This document shows positions 1,752 to 7,862 of a stretch of DNA of 25,165 nt, one piece after another. Position 1 is the first letter of the stretch. Each line of letters opens with the position of its first letter. Position numbers and translations under genes: made by a program. The DNA comes from a virus. The notes below the pieces were generated by a model, which had not been told where the DNA came from, did no database searches, and saw only the letters and a list, made by a program, of their open reading frames with translations. Location of the stretch: positions 1 to 25,165 of IMG/VR virus record IMGVR_UViG_3300030104_000410, one strand, 5' to 3'.

Positions 1752-1876
1752 TTTCTTTTTCTTCTGTCAAATAATAAATGATTTCTATGTTGATCAAAAC
1801 CAAACATCATTTTAAAACTCCCACATTTGTCAGGGTCATACATTTTTTCTTTTTTTTCCTTTTTTTCTTTTTTCAT
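1748..1876 (-). CDS. Tiny basic protein, 42 aa
   Basis: An open frame of 42 codons fills the gap between the methyltransferase and the nuclease-like gene. It starts one base after the methyltransferase stop, and its own TGA overlaps the next ATG (ATGA). The product begins with a Lys/Glu run (MKKEKKEKKEKMYDPDK), has a central KCGSFKMMFGFDQHRNH stretch and ends in DRRKRK. I do not recognise it. The clean fit between two genes and the coupling-type overlap make it a believable real gene. A low-complexity start and short length keep the confidence moderate. Confidence 0.55.
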   Translation of the reverse strand: MKKEKKEKKEKMYDPDKCGSFKMMFGFDQHRNHLLFDRRKRK

Positions 1877-1877
1877 T

Positions 1878-2564
1878 TTAAAATAATTCTATTTGTTTAA
1901 TATTTTCTTTTTTTACAACACCTAACATAGTTTCAAATATTGTTTTACCTACTTCATAATCTACTAGGTTTCTTGCTATTTTGTCATTTTTTTGTTTTCC
2001 TTTATATTTAGTAAAATCGTAGTCGTGAAATTTGCACAAATTTTTAAATTCGTGATTGATAACTTTTGTTTTTGCTTGTTTTTTATTGGAACCTATGTTA
2101 ATTTTTCTTTTTCCTAAATTATAAGGTAAATTAAAGTTAGTCCAATATAAATGCCTACCTCTTTTTTTAGCAGGTATTAATGGCTCATAATAGGGTATAA
2201 CATTTTCTACAACATATTTACCTTTATATCTTGGATTTTTGCCACTTGATACTGTTTGTAATAAAATTATTTCTTCATACAGTTTCATCTCAGGGTATTT
2301 AGTTTCATATTTTGAGTTGTATGCCCTAGCTATACTATGAGTTGGGCAGGGTGGTGAACTCCAAATAAAGTCATATTCTTTAAAGTGTTTCAGTAAGTAT
2401 TGGTGTGCATCAGCTACTATTACTTTGTCATTAGGAAATCTCTCTTGATATAATCTAGCTAACTCAGGGTCAAGCTCTACTGCTGTTACTTCTATATCTT
2501 CTTTTACTTCGTTCCATTTGTATCTGTTGCCACCTAAACAAGCATATAAATTTAATATCTTCAT
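1878..2564 (-). CDS. C5-cytosine DNA methyltransferase, orphan, 228 aa
   Basis: The protein transfers a methyl group to cytosine in DNA. Motif I appears as LNLYACLGGNRYKW (residues 4-17), the acidic ribose-binding position as AVELDPE (28-34), the catalytic PC loop as SSPPCPTHS with Cys73, motif VI as VVENV (118-122), and motif VIII as KRGRHLYWTNF (134-144). The length is short for the full family but usual for the compact phage type, which has a small target-recognition region. No restriction enzyme lies beside it, so it probably protects phage DNA from host cutting or marks it for packaging or replication. It starts at ATG 2564 in an ATGA overlap with the preceding gene. Target sequence is not readable from the protein. 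Confidence 0.9.
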   Translation of the reverse strand: MKILNLYACLGGNRYKWNEVKEDIEVTAVELDPELARLYQERFPNDKVIVADAHQYLLKHFKEYDFIWSSPPCPTHSIARAYNSKYETKYPEMKLYEEIILLQTVSSGKNPRYKGKYVVENVIPYYEPLIPAKKRGRHLYWTNFNLPYNLGKRKINIGSNKKQAKTKVINHEFKNLCKFHDYDFTKYKGKQKNDKIARNLVDYEVGKTIFETMLGVVKKENIKQIELF

Positions 2565-2923
2565 TTTAATAGTTTTATTGGTTCTTGATAAAATGGTACA
2601 TTCTTTTGACCTAGTGTATGTGTTTGGTGGTATGCATCATCGATGACCTTCTTGTGAGCATACGTCCACTTATAAAAAGTTCTAATGTTTAAAAATGGTT
2701 CATCTTTTCCAAATCTAACCCCCTGATGAAATGCGTCAACAATTTGGTTAAATGTCATATTACCAAACCTTTTTTCTTTTATAAGGTCTTGTGCAAATAT
2801 TTGACTCAAACTTGCTAGAGTTTTTGGGTCTGACTTATGACCTATTTCTACTGCTGTTTTTGCTATTAGATCTAACACCTTACCTGTTAGTTCTTGTAAG
2901 TTTTCTTGTTTTAATGGTTTCAT
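2561..2923 (-). CDS. Conserved hypothetical protein in the replication cluster, 120 aa
   Basis: This is a 120-residue all-helical protein with no motif I can name. A notable block is KRFGNMTFNQIVDAFHQGVRFGKDE (about 51-75), followed by a LNIRTFYKWTYAHK aromatic/basic stretch. It starts with an ATGA overlap on the winged-helix replication gene and ends with an ATGA overlap on the methyltransferase. Its place directly after two replication-initiation genes suggests a helicase-loader-type or accessory replication role, but this is only context. Confidence 0.75.
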   Translation of the reverse strand: MKPLKQENLQELTGKVLDLIAKTAVEIGHKSDPKTLASLSQIFAQDLIKEKRFGNMTFNQIVDAFHQGVRFGKDEPFLNIRTFYKWTYAHKKVIDDAYHQTHTLGQKNVPFYQEPIKLLK

Positions 2924-3537
2924 ATTAATTTTTTAGCTTCTTGCCAAGCATTTATTTGAGCATCTAGCTTTGACATTGTTGGTTTTTTTGTTTTCTTTTT
3001 TTCCCAAGTTCTTACTGCTGCCTTCCAATCTTTCATTTTGTTTTTACCTACCATCCAACCTTTAGATTCATAAAAGTCAATAAAGGTTTCAGGGTCAACA
3101 TTATTTTTACGTAAAATACAATAATTTTTAACATCATCAATATTTGGCTTCTTAAAATATTTATTATGTATTGTTATTATTTTATTCTTATTAATAGTTG
3201 TTAAATTTTTATCAGACAAGTTGTTTAAAATTTGAAGGACTTGTTCTTCATTTATTTTAAAATATTGTTTAGCAGGTATTCCTTTACGCTTAACTTCTAT
3301 CAGGTTATGTTTTTTAAGTGTTTTAAGGCACTTTCTTTGATGATATGGGTTTAGTGTAGTATCTGCTTCAATATTAGCTTCAGTATTAAAAAACCAACCA
3401 TCAGTCATCCCATTAGCTATAAAGTATTCTTCTTTTGAAATTAGGTCAGCAAGTAGGATTGCTTCTTTTAACCCTACCTGCCTTGCTAATTCTTTATTTA
3501 ACACTATAAAAGCTGTACTACTTAAAAGGTGCTTCAT
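2920..3537 (-). CDS. Winged-helix replication protein (helicase-loader/initiator-like), 205 aa
   Basis: The N-terminal half looks like a winged helix-turn-helix: a helical stretch (about 10-40), an aromatic DGWFFNTEANIEADTTL turn, the recognition helix YHQRKCLKTLKKHNLIE (65-81) and the wing GIPAKQYFKI. After a charged linker, residues 131-181 form a second domain (PNIDDVKNYC, DPETFIDFYESKGWMVG, MKDWKAAVRTWEK). This type of tail is found in phage DnaD-like and replisome-organiser proteins of Bacteroidota. It overlaps the DnaA-like gene upstream by ATGA. The likely role is to join origin recognition to helicase loading. Origin recognition itself may instead belong to the neighbouring DnaA-like protein. 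Confidence 0.7.
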   Translation of the reverse strand: MKHLLSSTAFIVLNKELARQVGLKEAILLADLISKEEYFIANGMTDGWFFNTEANIEADTTLNPYHQRKCLKTLKKHNLIEVKRKGIPAKQYFKINEEQVLQILNNLSDKNLTTINKNKIITIHNKYFKKPNIDDVKNYCILRKNNVDPETFIDFYESKGWMVGKNKMKDWKAAVRTWEKKKTKKPTMSKLDAQINAWQEAKKLI

Positions 3538-4043
3538 ATAATTTTAATTTCATATTGATAATTTTTAAGAGCTAATTTAATACTTTCTAATTGATTTGAA
3601 AAATCAAAGTAAGAAGTTTTTATGATACATACAGCTTTTCCACTTTTTACTTCTATAAATACTTGACTTTTTTTATTTTCTTTAACTCCTTTTTTTAATA
3701 GATGAGCTTTTAAAAAATCATCATCTAAAAAAGATTTCTTTGAGCTTTCTAAGTTTTTGTAAGCTATATAAACTTTGTTAAAAGCCTTTCTGTATTGTAC
3801 CCAAGTAGCATAATTGTTTTTATGCTTTTTTTCATAGTGATATATTAATGTTCTGTGCCTACCTAACACATCAGCTATAACCTCGTGTTTTGTATAATCT
3901 TCCATTCTACCAATAACACTAGCAATAGATCTACCTATAGCAAGATTCTGTTTTCTACTTTTTAAGGCAAGAGAATCTTTAGGCAACCCCAAAACTCTCG
4001 TAGTAAGGTTGCACAAATTTATAAAGGTTTCTTGTTCTATCAT
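3534..4043 (-). CDS. DnaA domain-IV-like DNA-binding protein, 169 aa
   Basis: The first 75 residues match the pattern of the C-terminal, DnaA-box-binding domain of DnaA: a basic helix with LKSRKQNLAIGRSIASVIGR (27-46), a short acidic turn, and the helix VLGRHRTLIYHYEKKH (59-74), which corresponds to the DnaA signature G-R-D-H-T-T-V-x-H. There is no AAA+ ATPase domain. The remaining 90 residues are unrecognised and contain a basic linker and a beta-rich end. Such a stand-alone domain could mark the phage origin or act as an operator-binding regulator. DnaA-box-like repeats at 6293-6338 are the obvious target. It shares a TAATG junction with the SSB-like gene upstream. Confidence 0.7.
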   Translation of the reverse strand: MIEQETFINLCNLTTRVLGLPKDSLALKSRKQNLAIGRSIASVIGRMEDYTKHEVIADVLGRHRTLIYHYEKKHKNNYATWVQYRKAFNKVYIAYKNLESSKKSFLDDDFLKAHLLKKGVKENKKSQVFIEVKSGKAVCIIKTSYFDFSNQLESIKLALKNYQYEIKII

Positions 4044-4360
4044 TAGAAAGGTAAATCTGATTCATCATTATTGCCCACTGTTTCTTCACCTACCTTAACT
4101 ATAAACCAACCATCTATGTTATGGTAGTATTTTCCATTGTATTCTCTTGAAGATAAGTTTACTGATACATTAACTTCAGATCCTTCAGAAATATCTCTAA
4201 GGCTTCTTACCTTATCACCAAAAAAACTAATAACAACTTCTTTATTGAAGTCCTTACCATTTTGTTCTATGATAACTGATTGTTTTTCCCAACTCTTTCC
4301 TGATTTTGATGTTCCTGTTTCTTTGTCTAATTTTTTAACTAGCTTTCCAATTACTTGCAT
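4043..4360 (-). CDS. DUF3127-like OB-fold, SSB-like protein, 105 aa
   Basis: This small protein has the look of the DUF3127 family, a Bacteroidota OB-fold group tied to single-strand DNA work. It opens with MQVIGKLVKKLDKETGTSKS, carries the WEKQSVIIEQ strand, and has an FFGDKVRSL region and VNVSVNLSSREYNGKYYHNI strands. The last residues, NNDESDLPF, form an acidic tip like the bacterial SSB C-terminal tail, which docks replication and repair partners. The likely role is to coat single-stranded DNA for the annealing protein and the replication proteins beside it. Family membership is recognised from memory. The SSB-type tip is directly visible. Confidence 0.82.
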   Translation of the reverse strand: MQVIGKLVKKLDKETGTSKSGKSWEKQSVIIEQNGKDFNKEVVISFFGDKVRSLRDISEGSEVNVSVNLSSREYNGKYYHNIDGWFIVKVGEETVGNNDESDLPF

Positions 4361-4384
4361 TTTTATTTATTTATTTAATTAATA

Positions 4385-4765
4385 CTATTTTTTAAATTCT
4401 TCTGATTCGTCTTCACCGAATACACCTAATTCATAGAATCCTGTCAGCTTTAAAACTGCTCTTGACATTGCTCTTTTTTCTGCCATTTCTAATACGTACC
4501 AAGTATTGCAATTACCATCTTTAAACCCTCCCCTTAAAGCTGATCCAAATGTTTCTAAAGTAATTTCATCTTTAATTGCTGTTGCTTTTACTGCTGCAAA
4601 ATTTGATTCACATTTTACAACCTCATATCTTATTCTGATATTTTCTAAGGCTTGAATTTTCTCGATTCCTGAACGAGTTATAATGATGTAGTGTTGATGT
4701 CGAAATACATCTTCTTTTTCTAATCCATAATATTCATACTTTTCTCTAATTTTTTCTGTTTTCAT
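4385..4765 (-). CDS. Putative ERF/Rad52-like single-strand annealing protein, 126 aa
   Basis: The protein has a conserved block FRHQHYIIITRSGIEKIQ (21-38), a beta-rich middle ending in ETFGSALRGG, and a C-terminal helix AEKRAMSRAVLKLTGFYEL (95-113). The last element resembles the A-x-T-R-A-x-G-R-A-L helix of ERF-type single-strand annealing and ssDNA-binding proteins. It lies next to an SSB-like gene, the usual partnership for phage annealases. At 126 residues it is shorter than most ERF proteins and lacks a distinct C-terminal tail, so it may be a reduced form or a related ssDNA-binding protein. The assignment is an inference from motif shape and context. Confidence 0.5.
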   Translation of the reverse strand: MKTEKIREKYEYYGLEKEDVFRHQHYIIITRSGIEKIQALENIRIRYEVVKCESNFAAVKATAIKDEITLETFGSALRGGFKDGNCNTWYVLEMAEKRAMSRAVLKLTGFYELGVFGEDESEEFKK

Positions 4766-4822
4766 ATCTAATTTGTTTAGTTAATAATTTTGTTAAAAAT
4801 AATAAATTTAATTTAATTCATT

Positions 4823-6009: not shown

Positions 6010-6243
6010 TTAAAGGTTTCTAAAATCTGATTCAAATTTATTTTTGTTCATCATATCTATATAAAGTCCTACCATATCAACAATGAAATATTGTGGATTG
6101 AAAACTTGATTGAATGTTTTGCCATTTGTAAGTTCAGAATCTAAATTTGTAATGAATTCTAATTGTCCTTTTGTAAAATCTTTAAATCCTCTGTTGGTTA
6201 ATGCTGCTGCTAACTTTGTTTCTAATGATGTTAAATTTTCCAT
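6010..6243 (-). CDS. First gene of the leftward operon, hypothetical, 77 aa
   Basis: This is a 77-residue helical protein with the block TKLAAALTNRGFKDFTKGQLEFI and a second part FNPQYFIVDMVGLYIDMM. No family is recognised. It is the first gene after the Bacteroidota-type promoter at about 6274-6304, with a leader of roughly 25 bases, so it should be among the earliest and most strongly made products of this operon. In phages such first genes are often host-takeover or regulatory proteins. This is an inference from position only. Confidence 0.7.
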   Translation of the reverse strand: MENLTSLETKLAAALTNRGFKDFTKGQLEFITNLDSELTNGKTFNQVFNPQYFIVDMVGLYIDMMNKNKFESDFRNL

Positions 6244-6273
6244 TTTGTTTATTTTTAGTTAATTATTATGATG

Positions 6274-6304
6274 CAAATATACAAGCTTTTTTTTATTCAC
6301 ACAA
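6274..6304 (-). promoter_or_regulatory. Bacteroidota-type promoter for the replication operon
   Basis: On the minus strand a TATATTTG element (6281..6274) matches the Bacteroidota -7 consensus TAnnTTTG. A TTG (6304..6302) lies 20 bases upstream as the candidate -33 box. Transcription would start near 6268, about 25 bases before the ATG at 6243. The -33 region overlaps the first of the DnaA-box-like repeats, so a protein bound there could block the promoter. Confidence 0.7.
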
Positions 6305-6338
6305 TTATTTACAACTTTATTTACAAAGTTATTAACAA
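6293..6338. repeat. Four DnaA-box-like direct repeats, 12-bp period (candidate origin/iterons)
   Basis: On the plus strand four 10-mers start exactly 12 bases apart: TTATTCACAC (6293), TTATTTACAA (6305), TTATTTACAA (6317) and TTATTAACAA (6329). The first contains TTATTCACA, an exact match to the DnaA-box consensus TTATNCACA. The others differ from it at one or two positions. The array lies in the only sizeable gene-poor gap of the window and is next to AT-rich DNA. It is a candidate replication origin or an operator for the DnaA-like protein encoded at 3534-4043. Confidence 0.65.
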
Positions 6339-6376
6339 TTATAATGTTAGTAATAGTGTTTACTAGATATAAAGTA
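6339..6376. other. AT-rich stretch beside the repeat array
   Basis: This almost pure AT stretch has no gene. It lies between the repeat array and the end of the tiny membrane ORF. It could serve as a DNA-unwinding element if the array is an origin. Apart from that I see no motif in it. Confidence 0.3.
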
Positions 6377-6454
6377 TTATAAAGAAAGGAGCAATACTAT
6401 TGCAATAAATAGCATATAAAATAAAGAAAGTTTAGTAGAATCCTTTATTTTCAT
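6377..6454 (-). CDS. Tiny one-TM membrane peptide, 25 aa
   Basis: The ATG at 6454 overlaps the phosphoesterase stop as TAATG and opens a 25-codon frame: MKIKDSTKLSLFYMLFIAIV followed by LLLSL. A short basic/polar head and a 16-residue hydrophobic run make a textbook single-span peptide. No family is recognised. It closes the late block just before the origin/promoter gap. A membrane role in lysis or in keeping out other phages is imaginable. The small size leaves room for chance. Confidence 0.42.
   Translation of the reverse strand: MKIKDSTKLSLFYMLFIAIVLLLSL
6391..6403. repeat. Short palindrome inside the tiny ORF
   Basis: GCAATACTATTGC is a 5-bp inverted repeat around a 3-base centre. It lies inside the tiny membrane ORF. 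It may be a small operator or may be chance in AT-rich DNA. Confidence 0.25.
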
Positions 6455-7203
6455 TATAAAGGCATTAAAAGATTTAGCGGTGTTTTACCATTATTTAGTA
6501 TCACAGCACAACCAACAGCAGGTCTTTTACCATACTTAGCGTATGCCATTGCGTAAGACTTATGGTTGATTCCACAACCTACCTGAGTTCCATAGACCCT
6601 GAACTTCTTACCAACATAGTGTTCTGTATAACATTGTGTATGAAGATGACCTTGCACGGTATTCATCATATCAGCACGACATTTAGTTCTAGCTGTTCCA
6701 CCTTCTCCGTGTATATATTGAACCCCATCTTGTTCGTATCTTTCTACAAAATCCCAATTAGGAGTTTCTAAAACTTCTTTGTATGACTTAATCCATTTAC
6801 TTGGAATAGATGATGTTTGACTTTTCCTAGAAATAATCCTGTCATGGTTGCCAATAATAACTTTTGTACCTATTTCATCAAAAGCATCATACCAAGTAGA
6901 TATTTTCTTAATAGCTAATTCTAGCTCTTCTAAGCCACCCATTCCATCTGCTGATGTCTCATGGTAACTTGCGTAATGATTGTCGATTATATCGCCTATA
7001 AAGATTGTTTGGGTACAATTATAGGTTTCATACTGTTCTAAACAGAAATCTAAGTATCCATCTAAGCAGAATGGTTCATGAAGGTCACCGATAACTAGAA
7101 CGTTCCTAGTTTCGGTTTCCCTCATTTTTTCAAGTGCCACTATTTCATGCGGCTTTAATCTATATCTGTTATTTTTTGGCAACGTCTGCGATTCCTTGAC
7201 CAA
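6454..7203 (-). CDS. Calcineurin-like metallophosphoesterase, 249 aa
   Basis: All motifs of the two-metal phosphoesterase fold are visible in order: GDLHEP (Asp40, His42), GDIIDNH (Asp71, Asp74), GNHD (119-121), YIHGE (His165) and GHLHTQ (His186, His188). The enzyme would cleave phosphodiester or phosphomonoester bonds with bound Mn or Fe/Zn. In phages such enzymes may trim nucleic acids or nucleotides, but the substrate cannot be read here. The N-terminal 27 residues precede the fold. The first ATG (7203) overlaps the upstream small membrane gene by 35 bases, and an inner ATG at 7122 would cut close to the fold. It sits at the boundary between lysis genes and the origin region, which is unusual for a replication enzyme. 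Confidence 0.9.
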   Translation of the reverse strand: MVKESQTLPKNNRYRLKPHEIVALEKMRETETRNVLVIGDLHEPFCLDGYLDFCLEQYETYNCTQTIFIGDIIDNHYASYHETSADGMGGLEELELAIKKISTWYDAFDEIGTKVIIGNHDRIISRKSQTSSIPSKWIKSYKEVLETPNWDFVERYEQDGVQYIHGEGGTARTKCRADMMNTVQGHLHTQCYTEHYVGKKFRVYGTQVGCGINHKSYAMAYAKYGKRPAVGCAVILNNGKTPLNLLMPL

Positions 7204-7361: not shown

Positions 7362-7862
7362 TTATTTATTTTTGATTATTAAATTAATATTTTCTCCTCC
7401 CAAATTTAGTATTTCTTTCATTAGTAAATCCATAGCAAAAGTAGAGTTACTAACAAACCCCTGTTTACTTGCAAATCCTACTAGGATGCAACCGCTTGTG
7501 TCTTTTGCTGTATTTCCTCTATGAAATAGTATCCATTTTCGGTTAGGTACATCTTGTACTAATAAATGTAAATAATTTCTACTAGCACTTTCTCTTGCTA
7601 CTCTTAATCTTACTTTATATTCACCTTCAGGAATGCAAGAGATATTCCTTTGGTTGTCTTTCCACGGATTTTCTAATGTATCACACATACGTTCTCCATT
7701 AAGGAAAAGCTCACCCATTGTTGATTCTTCCGAAAAAGTATCACGTATGATTAAAAGGTTAATCTTATATTGAGGTTTAGACAGGGTATTTATATACTTT
7801 TGAGATTTTAACGCCTTTAACTTCTGCCACCAATTCTTCACGAACTTTATTATCCTTTTCAT
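7362..7862 (-). CDS. DUF5675-like protein, candidate endolysin, 166 aa
   Basis: The core (residues about 35-155) resembles the DUF5675 family, common in Bacteroidota phages and thought to act on peptidoglycan. Visible elements are RDTFSEESTMGELFLNG, CDTLENPWKDN, CIPEGEY, and the block FHRGNTAKDTSGCILVG with His114, Asp121, Ser123 and Cys125. This recalls the His/Ser-Gly-Cys layout of L,D-transpeptidase-type folds. The first 30 residues are basic and aromatic (KNWWQKLKALK) and overlap a small upstream ORF by 86 bases. Flanking small membrane proteins make a lysis cassette. Enzyme activity is inferred, not shown. Confidence 0.72.
   Translation of the reverse strand: MKRIIKFVKNWWQKLKALKSQKYINTLSKPQYKINLLIIRDTFSEESTMGELFLNGERMCDTLENPWKDNQRNISCIPEGEYKVRLRVARESASRNYLHLLVQDVPNRKWILFHRGNTAKDTSGCILVGFASKQGFVSNSTFAMDLLMKEILNLGGENINLIIKNK

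Follow-up and report, generated by a model that had tools for sequence, protein, structure and literature searches.

The four 12-bp repeats at 6293-6338 are best explained, with a probability that we put at roughly 0.55 from sequence comparison, as the operator of the early/replication promoter of this phage, a predicted site for its own stand-alone DnaA domain-IV protein through which that protein would exert feedback on the operon. The window is the whole IMG/VR virus record, 25,165 bases, and nearly all of its genes lie on the minus strand. Along the transcript, head, tail, and portal genes are followed by a phrog_1501 gene, a metallophosphoesterase (6454-7203), an AT-rich gap (6244-6453), and the early/replication operon, which includes an SSB (DUF3127), the 169-aa DnaA-like protein, and an O/DnaD-like protein. 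The following genes of this operon are referred to below.

6010-6243, minus strand: gene at the head of the operon (77 aa), without functional assignment and differing between relatives.
4043-4360, minus strand: SSB-like DUF3127 protein, in the same operon as the 169-aa gene.
3534-4043, minus strand: 169-aa DnaA domain-IV protein, stand-alone, which is proposed to read the array.
2920-3537, minus strand: 205-aa O/DnaD-like winged-helix replication protein (PHROGs O-like, DnaD-like), proposed helicase loader or co-initiator.

The nearest cultured relative of the portal protein is Nonlabens phage P12024S (31%), which makes a flavobacterial host likely; the phage family carrying the array is uncultured and marine, probably with hosts of this group. 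Five related records of 28.5-30.1 kb (L104, L048, L060, L109, and L106) terminate in exact 77-, 99-, or 127-bp repeats and, because these are typical assembler k-mer lengths, were taken as circular maps of 28.4-30 kb genomes. A short hydrophobic ORF of 25 aa (6377-6454, minus strand) overlaps the stop of the metallophosphoesterase gene, and similar short ORFs are found there in several relatives.

The array consists of four TTATT(C/T/A)ACA(C/A) units with an exact period of 12 bp, and its first unit runs into the promoter elements of the opposite strand.

6293-6302, plus strand: array unit 1, TTATTCACAC, exact DnaA-box match, overlapping the -33 element on the gene strand.
6305-6314, plus strand: array unit 2, TTATTTACAA.
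6317-6326, plus strand: array unit 3, TTATTTACAA.
6329-6338, plus strand: array unit 4, TTATTAACAA, the top PWM score of the window.
6344-6353, minus strand: probable inverted unit (ATGTTAGTAA on the plus strand).
6302-6304, minus strand: TTG, -33 element of the early promoter, called by consensus (PMC7366714).
6274-6281, minus strand: TATATTTG, -7 element (consensus TAnnTTTG), with the 6010-6243 gene starting 30 bp further on.

The first-pass annotation had placed four DnaA-box-like repeats at 6293, 6305, 6317, and 6329, the first holding an exact box. All are present; the first unit contains TTATNCACA, and each of the other three carries one mismatch to it, at box position 6. TRF reports the same stretch as a 12-bp repeat of 3.8 copies (6293-6338), and it is the sole cluster of such units within the window. 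A weaker inverted unit-like site (6356-6365) follows the probable inverted unit, the position of which is kept in relatives as a TTAACAc consensus that, on the gene strand, comes just before the array (A86/A81/C62 at -9/-10/-8). Single boxes are not above chance in the window, with 38 matches at no more than one mismatch against 45.8 expected, and 18 PWM sites were found compared with 13.1 in shuffles. The chance of four boxes falling at exact 12-bp steps is by our own estimate ~1e-8 to 1e-7 (9e-4 per position and strand, cubed, × 46). A chance origin of the array is ruled out by these exact steps, by conservation in relatives, and by the shuffle controls. Two further box-like units 12 bp apart (TAGTTAATAA and TTGTTAAAAA, plus strand) lie at 4778-4799 in the short gap 5' of the 4385-4765 gene, and are possibly a second, weaker site.

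The strongest sequence evidence on function is that the array appears to lie within the replication operon's promoter, with what looks like the anatomy of an operator. Bacteroidetes promoters are built from a -33/-7 pair, with TTTG or TTG near -33 and TAnnTTTG at -7 (PMC7366714; also PMC2483708). Both primary-sigma elements occur in the window, TATATTTG at -7 and TTG near -33, a call that rests on the consensus and would put the transcription start about 7 nt beyond the -7 box. On the gene strand, the array (AATTGTTAATAACTTTGTAAATAAAGTTGTAAATAATTGTGTGAATAA) leads into AAAAAAGCTTGTATATTTGC, which contains the TTG and the TAnnTTTG box, and because it thereby runs into the -33/-7 pair ahead of the 6010-6243 gene, it was assigned to the operon promoter. 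The array had originally been described as beside the gene for the 169-aa protein. That placement did not hold up, as it lies 2.25 kb upstream of that gene, with the same direction of transcription, and adjoins the 77-aa gene.

The spacing between array and promoter is nearly fixed across relatives. Among 43 dereplicated loci, a TAnnTTTG box was found downstream of the array in 41, and the array-to-box distance was 9-11 mod 12 in 39 of these 41. The in-register position falls 21-24 bp upstream of the -7 box in 3-unit and 4-unit arrays alike, the dereplicated loci in this register having 3 or 4 units per array. Judged from this spacing, whole units are gained or lost between relatives and the phase with the polymerase is constant. 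Loci collected through the loader gene agree on the register (81 of 85 at 9-11 or 0 mod 12). The binomial value for the register, 1.6e-21, overstates the case because the loci share kinship. It is mainly this fixed register with the -7 box that led us to call the array an operator. A CTAG(A/T) element is also conserved 20-35 bp upstream of the array (window 6360-6369; L108, L136, and L097). The element is doubled in about half of the relatives, giving a dyad (TACTAGA...TCTAGTA) with the potential to fold as a hairpin; the dyad is absent in the window. A structured RNA or tRNA at this element was considered and dropped, as no Rfam match and no tRNA match were obtained there.

The proposed reader of the array was examined by sequence and by structure prediction. 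The 169-aa ORF had been described as carrying a helix resembling the DnaA signature (VLGRHRTLIYHY) and no ATPase domain, which proved correct on every point, and an AF2 model together with Foldseek fold matches supports its description as a stand-alone DnaA domain IV without the AAA+ motor. The model, built from 30 family sequences, has a pLDDT of 93, and its top PDB matches are all DnaA (3pvp, TM 0.83, and 1j1v, TM 0.82, both domain IV bound to DNA; and longer structures such as 8btg). The DnaA-like fold spans the N-terminal 100 residues, with a TM of 0.82-0.83 over the domain, and the AAA+ ATPase domain III is absent. Bac_DnaA_C was matched in 26 of 30 relatives (best 1.3e-6), the protein of the window itself scoring below the curated Pfam cut-off (17.9 versus 31.5). 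In E. coli DnaA, R407 and H434 are DNA contacts. R399 of the same protein contacts the minor groove and T435 a base, according to PMC9638019 on the basis of the DnaA–DNA structure. Alignments to T. maritima and E. coli DnaA place R30 and R38 of the phage protein at R399 and R407 and R64 at H434; all three arginines are invariant in 43 loci, and the position equivalent to T435 is S, T, or A. On the DNA side, the most constant letters of the units are T4, A7, C8, and A9 (box numbering), the same as in the DnaA box. The relaxed position is 6, with C in only 5% of 129 units. The array letters and their putative reader thus appear to fit each other. Covariation between recognition helix and array was unusable because almost no variation occurs at R30, R38, R64, Y68, H69, and Y70, and none in the array core.

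Searches for the array and gene pair in related phages, as the first-pass annotation had proposed, found the two kept together, an outcome that withstands the refutation test set there. When contigs were searched at DNA level for three units spaced by 12 bp, 46 were retrieved, and a DnaA-like gene is present in 32 of them: in 27 it lies within the stretch that was fetched (some copies are partial), and in 5 more it was found in the whole record. Thirteen of the remaining 14 break off no more than about 2.1 kb from the array, too soon to show the gene. Only L037 truly lacks it, with no Bac_DnaA_C match in the whole record; this 40.9-kb contig, from a different phage, has three exact TTATTCACAA boxes with a 12-bp period (7362-7397) before a gene, which may be a variant of this switch that host DnaA reads. 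In nearly all 46 contigs the linkers between units are also conserved, and the first downstream gene varies. Across these contigs, found by the array pattern, protein identity falls to 36% while the array is nearly constant.

The search from the protein side weighs more because a pattern search favours constant arrays. Protein and alignment searches gave about 100 loci selected without regard to the array (some contigs entering twice), and 88 of them, including the window, had at least 1.2 kb of upstream sequence. The 3-unit score exceeded the 95% shuffle level (22.7) in 78 of the 88 and the maximum of 704 shuffles (27.4) in 69, the window scoring 34.2; the shuffles are the control that counts, since the scoring scheme was devised after the arrays were known. 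These arrays precede the gene by about 1-4 kb and adjoin a TAnnTTTG box. Loci without an array mostly had short upstream sequence or belonged to the most distant clade (L018-L021); in this clade as a whole (L018-L022) the gene is kept and the regular array is absent. A third search started from the loader gene. It yielded 98 loci having 3.5 kb or more of upstream sequence, and the DnaA-like gene was adjacent in every one. A strict array was present in 84 of them, a drifted 12-bp array (e.g. GGTGAAAAACTT three times) in 11, and none in 3. In all these comparisons the loci are related to one another, and most records are fragments.

In whole records of about 29 kb there is one array per genome, within the initiator/loader operon. 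The second-best 3-unit score elsewhere in whole records was at most 9.7, compared with 28-36 for the array in most of them; the exceptions are G027, the drifted array of which scores 14, and G042, in which the array lies at the record ends and was mis-oriented in scoring. No array was found in the cultured flavobacterial phages without the DnaA-like gene that were examined (Fpv5, phi39:1, and P12024S). A loader gene without the DnaA-like gene, sought as a contrast in viral contigs, was not encountered at the search depth used, and the cultured phages that provided the contrast are distant ones. No cultured relative of the 169-aa protein was found in the phage collection at E ≤ 0.1, and no prophage copies were confirmed in GTDB genome contigs.

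A winged-helix protein had been noted next to the 169-aa gene, and this neighbourhood extends well beyond the window: an O/DnaD-like gene is directly next in 99 of 99 loci, which supports a replication role for the pair. In the window the two genes overlap by 4 bp. The O/DnaD-like gene occurs in two types that share the C-terminal part (phrog_15768) and have unlike N-terminal domains (an MKHLLSSTAF type and a KPNYYAIIPAEVRY type with HTH_36). Behind a constant DnaA-like gene and array, these N-terminal domains appear as exchanged modules (window 2920-3537; L127:5513-6118). Strict arrays accompany type 1 in 40 loci and type 2 in 44, and because both types keep the array, it is tied to the DnaA-like protein and not to the loader. 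In the cultured phages Fpv5 and phi39:1, loader homologues are found without a DnaA-like partner. An AF2 model of the loader was of moderate confidence (72) and was not used.

As we picture the operator, one protein monomer would read each 12-bp unit (DnaA box TTATNNACA, with position 6 relaxed), and three to four monomers would line up along the array. The promoter-proximal unit would double as the -33 element, so that a filled array would compete with RNA polymerase, and the operon would be shut down once the protein is plentiful, giving feedback repression. Less certainly, the same protein–DNA array might recruit the neighbouring loader-like protein, in which case the site would double as an origin, as in autoregulated iteron replicons.

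The first-pass annotation had proposed that the array is the phage origin. As its primary role, this is the most credible of the alternatives and still a doubtful one: a DnaA-IV initiator bound to iterons would hand over to the O/DnaD-like loader, and the promoter overlap would be a by-product or would serve transcriptional activation of the origin. The strict adjacency to the O/DnaD-like gene and the single array per genome argue for it, and tandem repeats of the kind expected of an iteron-type origin do lie in one genome region, the initiator/loader operon. Lambda-type iterons within the replication genes were sought and rejected, direct or iteron-like repeats being absent from 1800-4400, which also favours an origin at the array. 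Iteron initiators commonly autoregulate, and operator and origin roles are compatible in iteron plasmids. However, an origin does not require a rigid register with the -7 box, and homologous loaders in cultured phages function without a DnaA-like gene. GC skew, suggested earlier as a check on the origin, did not bear it out: at fourfold sites in 10 whole records, the skew had no consistent minimum or turning point at the array. That the array also serves as an origin, besides its proposed operator role, is possible from its sequence context.

It is rather unlikely that the DnaA-IV protein is instead an activator of the early promoter, binding the upstream units, recruiting the primary sigma factor, and driving positive feedback. 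A precedent exists in GafY, a stand-alone relative of the N-terminal DnaA-like domain of GafA, which interacts with RpoD and helps to activate the operon that encodes it (PMC11150451), and units 2-4 do lie upstream of -33, a usual position for an activator. The proximal unit, however, coincides with -33, where a bound protein should exclude sigma, and an early promoter dependent on its own product could not start itself. Because of this coincidence with -33, repression is more likely than activation.

Host DnaA is an improbable reader of the array, whether the purpose is to link the operon with the cell cycle of the host or to bring host DnaA to a phage origin. The exact TTATNCACA in unit 1 would suit it, as would the three exact boxes of L037 in the absence of a phage DnaA-like gene, but the rarity of C at position 6 (5% of 129 units) does not, and the array tracks the phage gene and is absent from cultured flavobacterial phages without it. 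Still less probable is recognition by the O/DnaD-like neighbour, although it is a DNA-binding type of protein present at every locus: the array is the same with either of its two types, the N-terminal domains of which are unlike (40 and 44 strict arrays), and is missing where cultured phages have a homologue but no DnaA-like gene.

Compared with known systems, the 169-aa protein shares the domain-IV fold and key arginines of bacterial DnaA, and the units keep T4, A7, C8, and A9 of TTATNCACA; it differs in lacking the AAA+ domain III and domain I and in having an extra C-terminal alpha/beta part, and the units differ from bacterial DnaA boxes in the relaxed position 6 and the strict 12-bp tandem inside a promoter. 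The iteron initiators RepE, RepA, and pi are motorless and autoregulated, and their tandem repeats, spaced near one helical turn, lie next to or over the promoter of their own operon. By analogy, the array would place tandem repeats over the promoter of its reader's operon, with a proposed motorless initiator; iteron Rep proteins, however, are winged-helix proteins, unlike the DnaA-IV protein, and the origin role of the array is putative. Phage lambda O/P and the HTH_36/DnaD-like replisome organizers likewise combine a motorless DNA-binding initiator with a loader, and the 205-aa neighbour belongs here. Lambda O iterons sit within the O gene, whereas in-gene iterons were not found in 1800-4400 and a separate DnaA-IV protein is added.

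GafA and GafY of gene transfer agents, a phage-derived system, offer a motorless DnaA-like domain that targets the promoter of the operon in which it is encoded (PMC9638019, PMC11150451). The 169-aa protein resembles them in having such a domain, and its control of its own operon is proposed from an array that falls within the predicted promoter of that operon in nearly all relatives. GafA and GafY, in contrast, are activators of Alphaproteobacteria acting together with IHF or the omega subunit at far-upstream or unmapped sites without a tandem DnaA-box-like array, and the neighbour here is an O/DnaD-like replication gene (99 of 99 loci) and not an RNA polymerase modifier (GafZ or the GafA C terminus). 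Stand-alone "DnaA C-terminal" proteins are known from the annotation of many phages. Some similar to the 169-aa protein occur in uncultured Caudovirales, Flavobacterium phage tooticki6-1, and Tenacibaculum phage Gundel_1, with fold matches at E down to 7e-17 and at most 43% identity. They are annotated by name only, and no description of a binding array, operon logic, or role for them was found in open-licence papers, which, being all that the search covered, make this absence weak evidence of novelty.

For one family of stand-alone DnaA-IV proteins, the array is a predicted binding site that is defined down to single bases, has a fixed architecture, and comes in many natural variants, and the role of the family is therefore directly testable. 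The arrangement of the array suggests that these phages may reuse the DNA-reading part of DnaA, without the motor, to control their own replication genes. A broader and still tentative proposal is that replication of a large group of uncultured phages starts at this array, read by a free-standing DnaA-IV protein that hands over to exchangeable O/DnaD-like loaders, and that the array is also the off-switch of the promoter; if true, initiator supply and initiation would be set at one site. Should the array also be an origin, the box-reading domain of DnaA could serve initiation without the AAA+ motor, which would bear on how much of DnaA is needed for origin marking.
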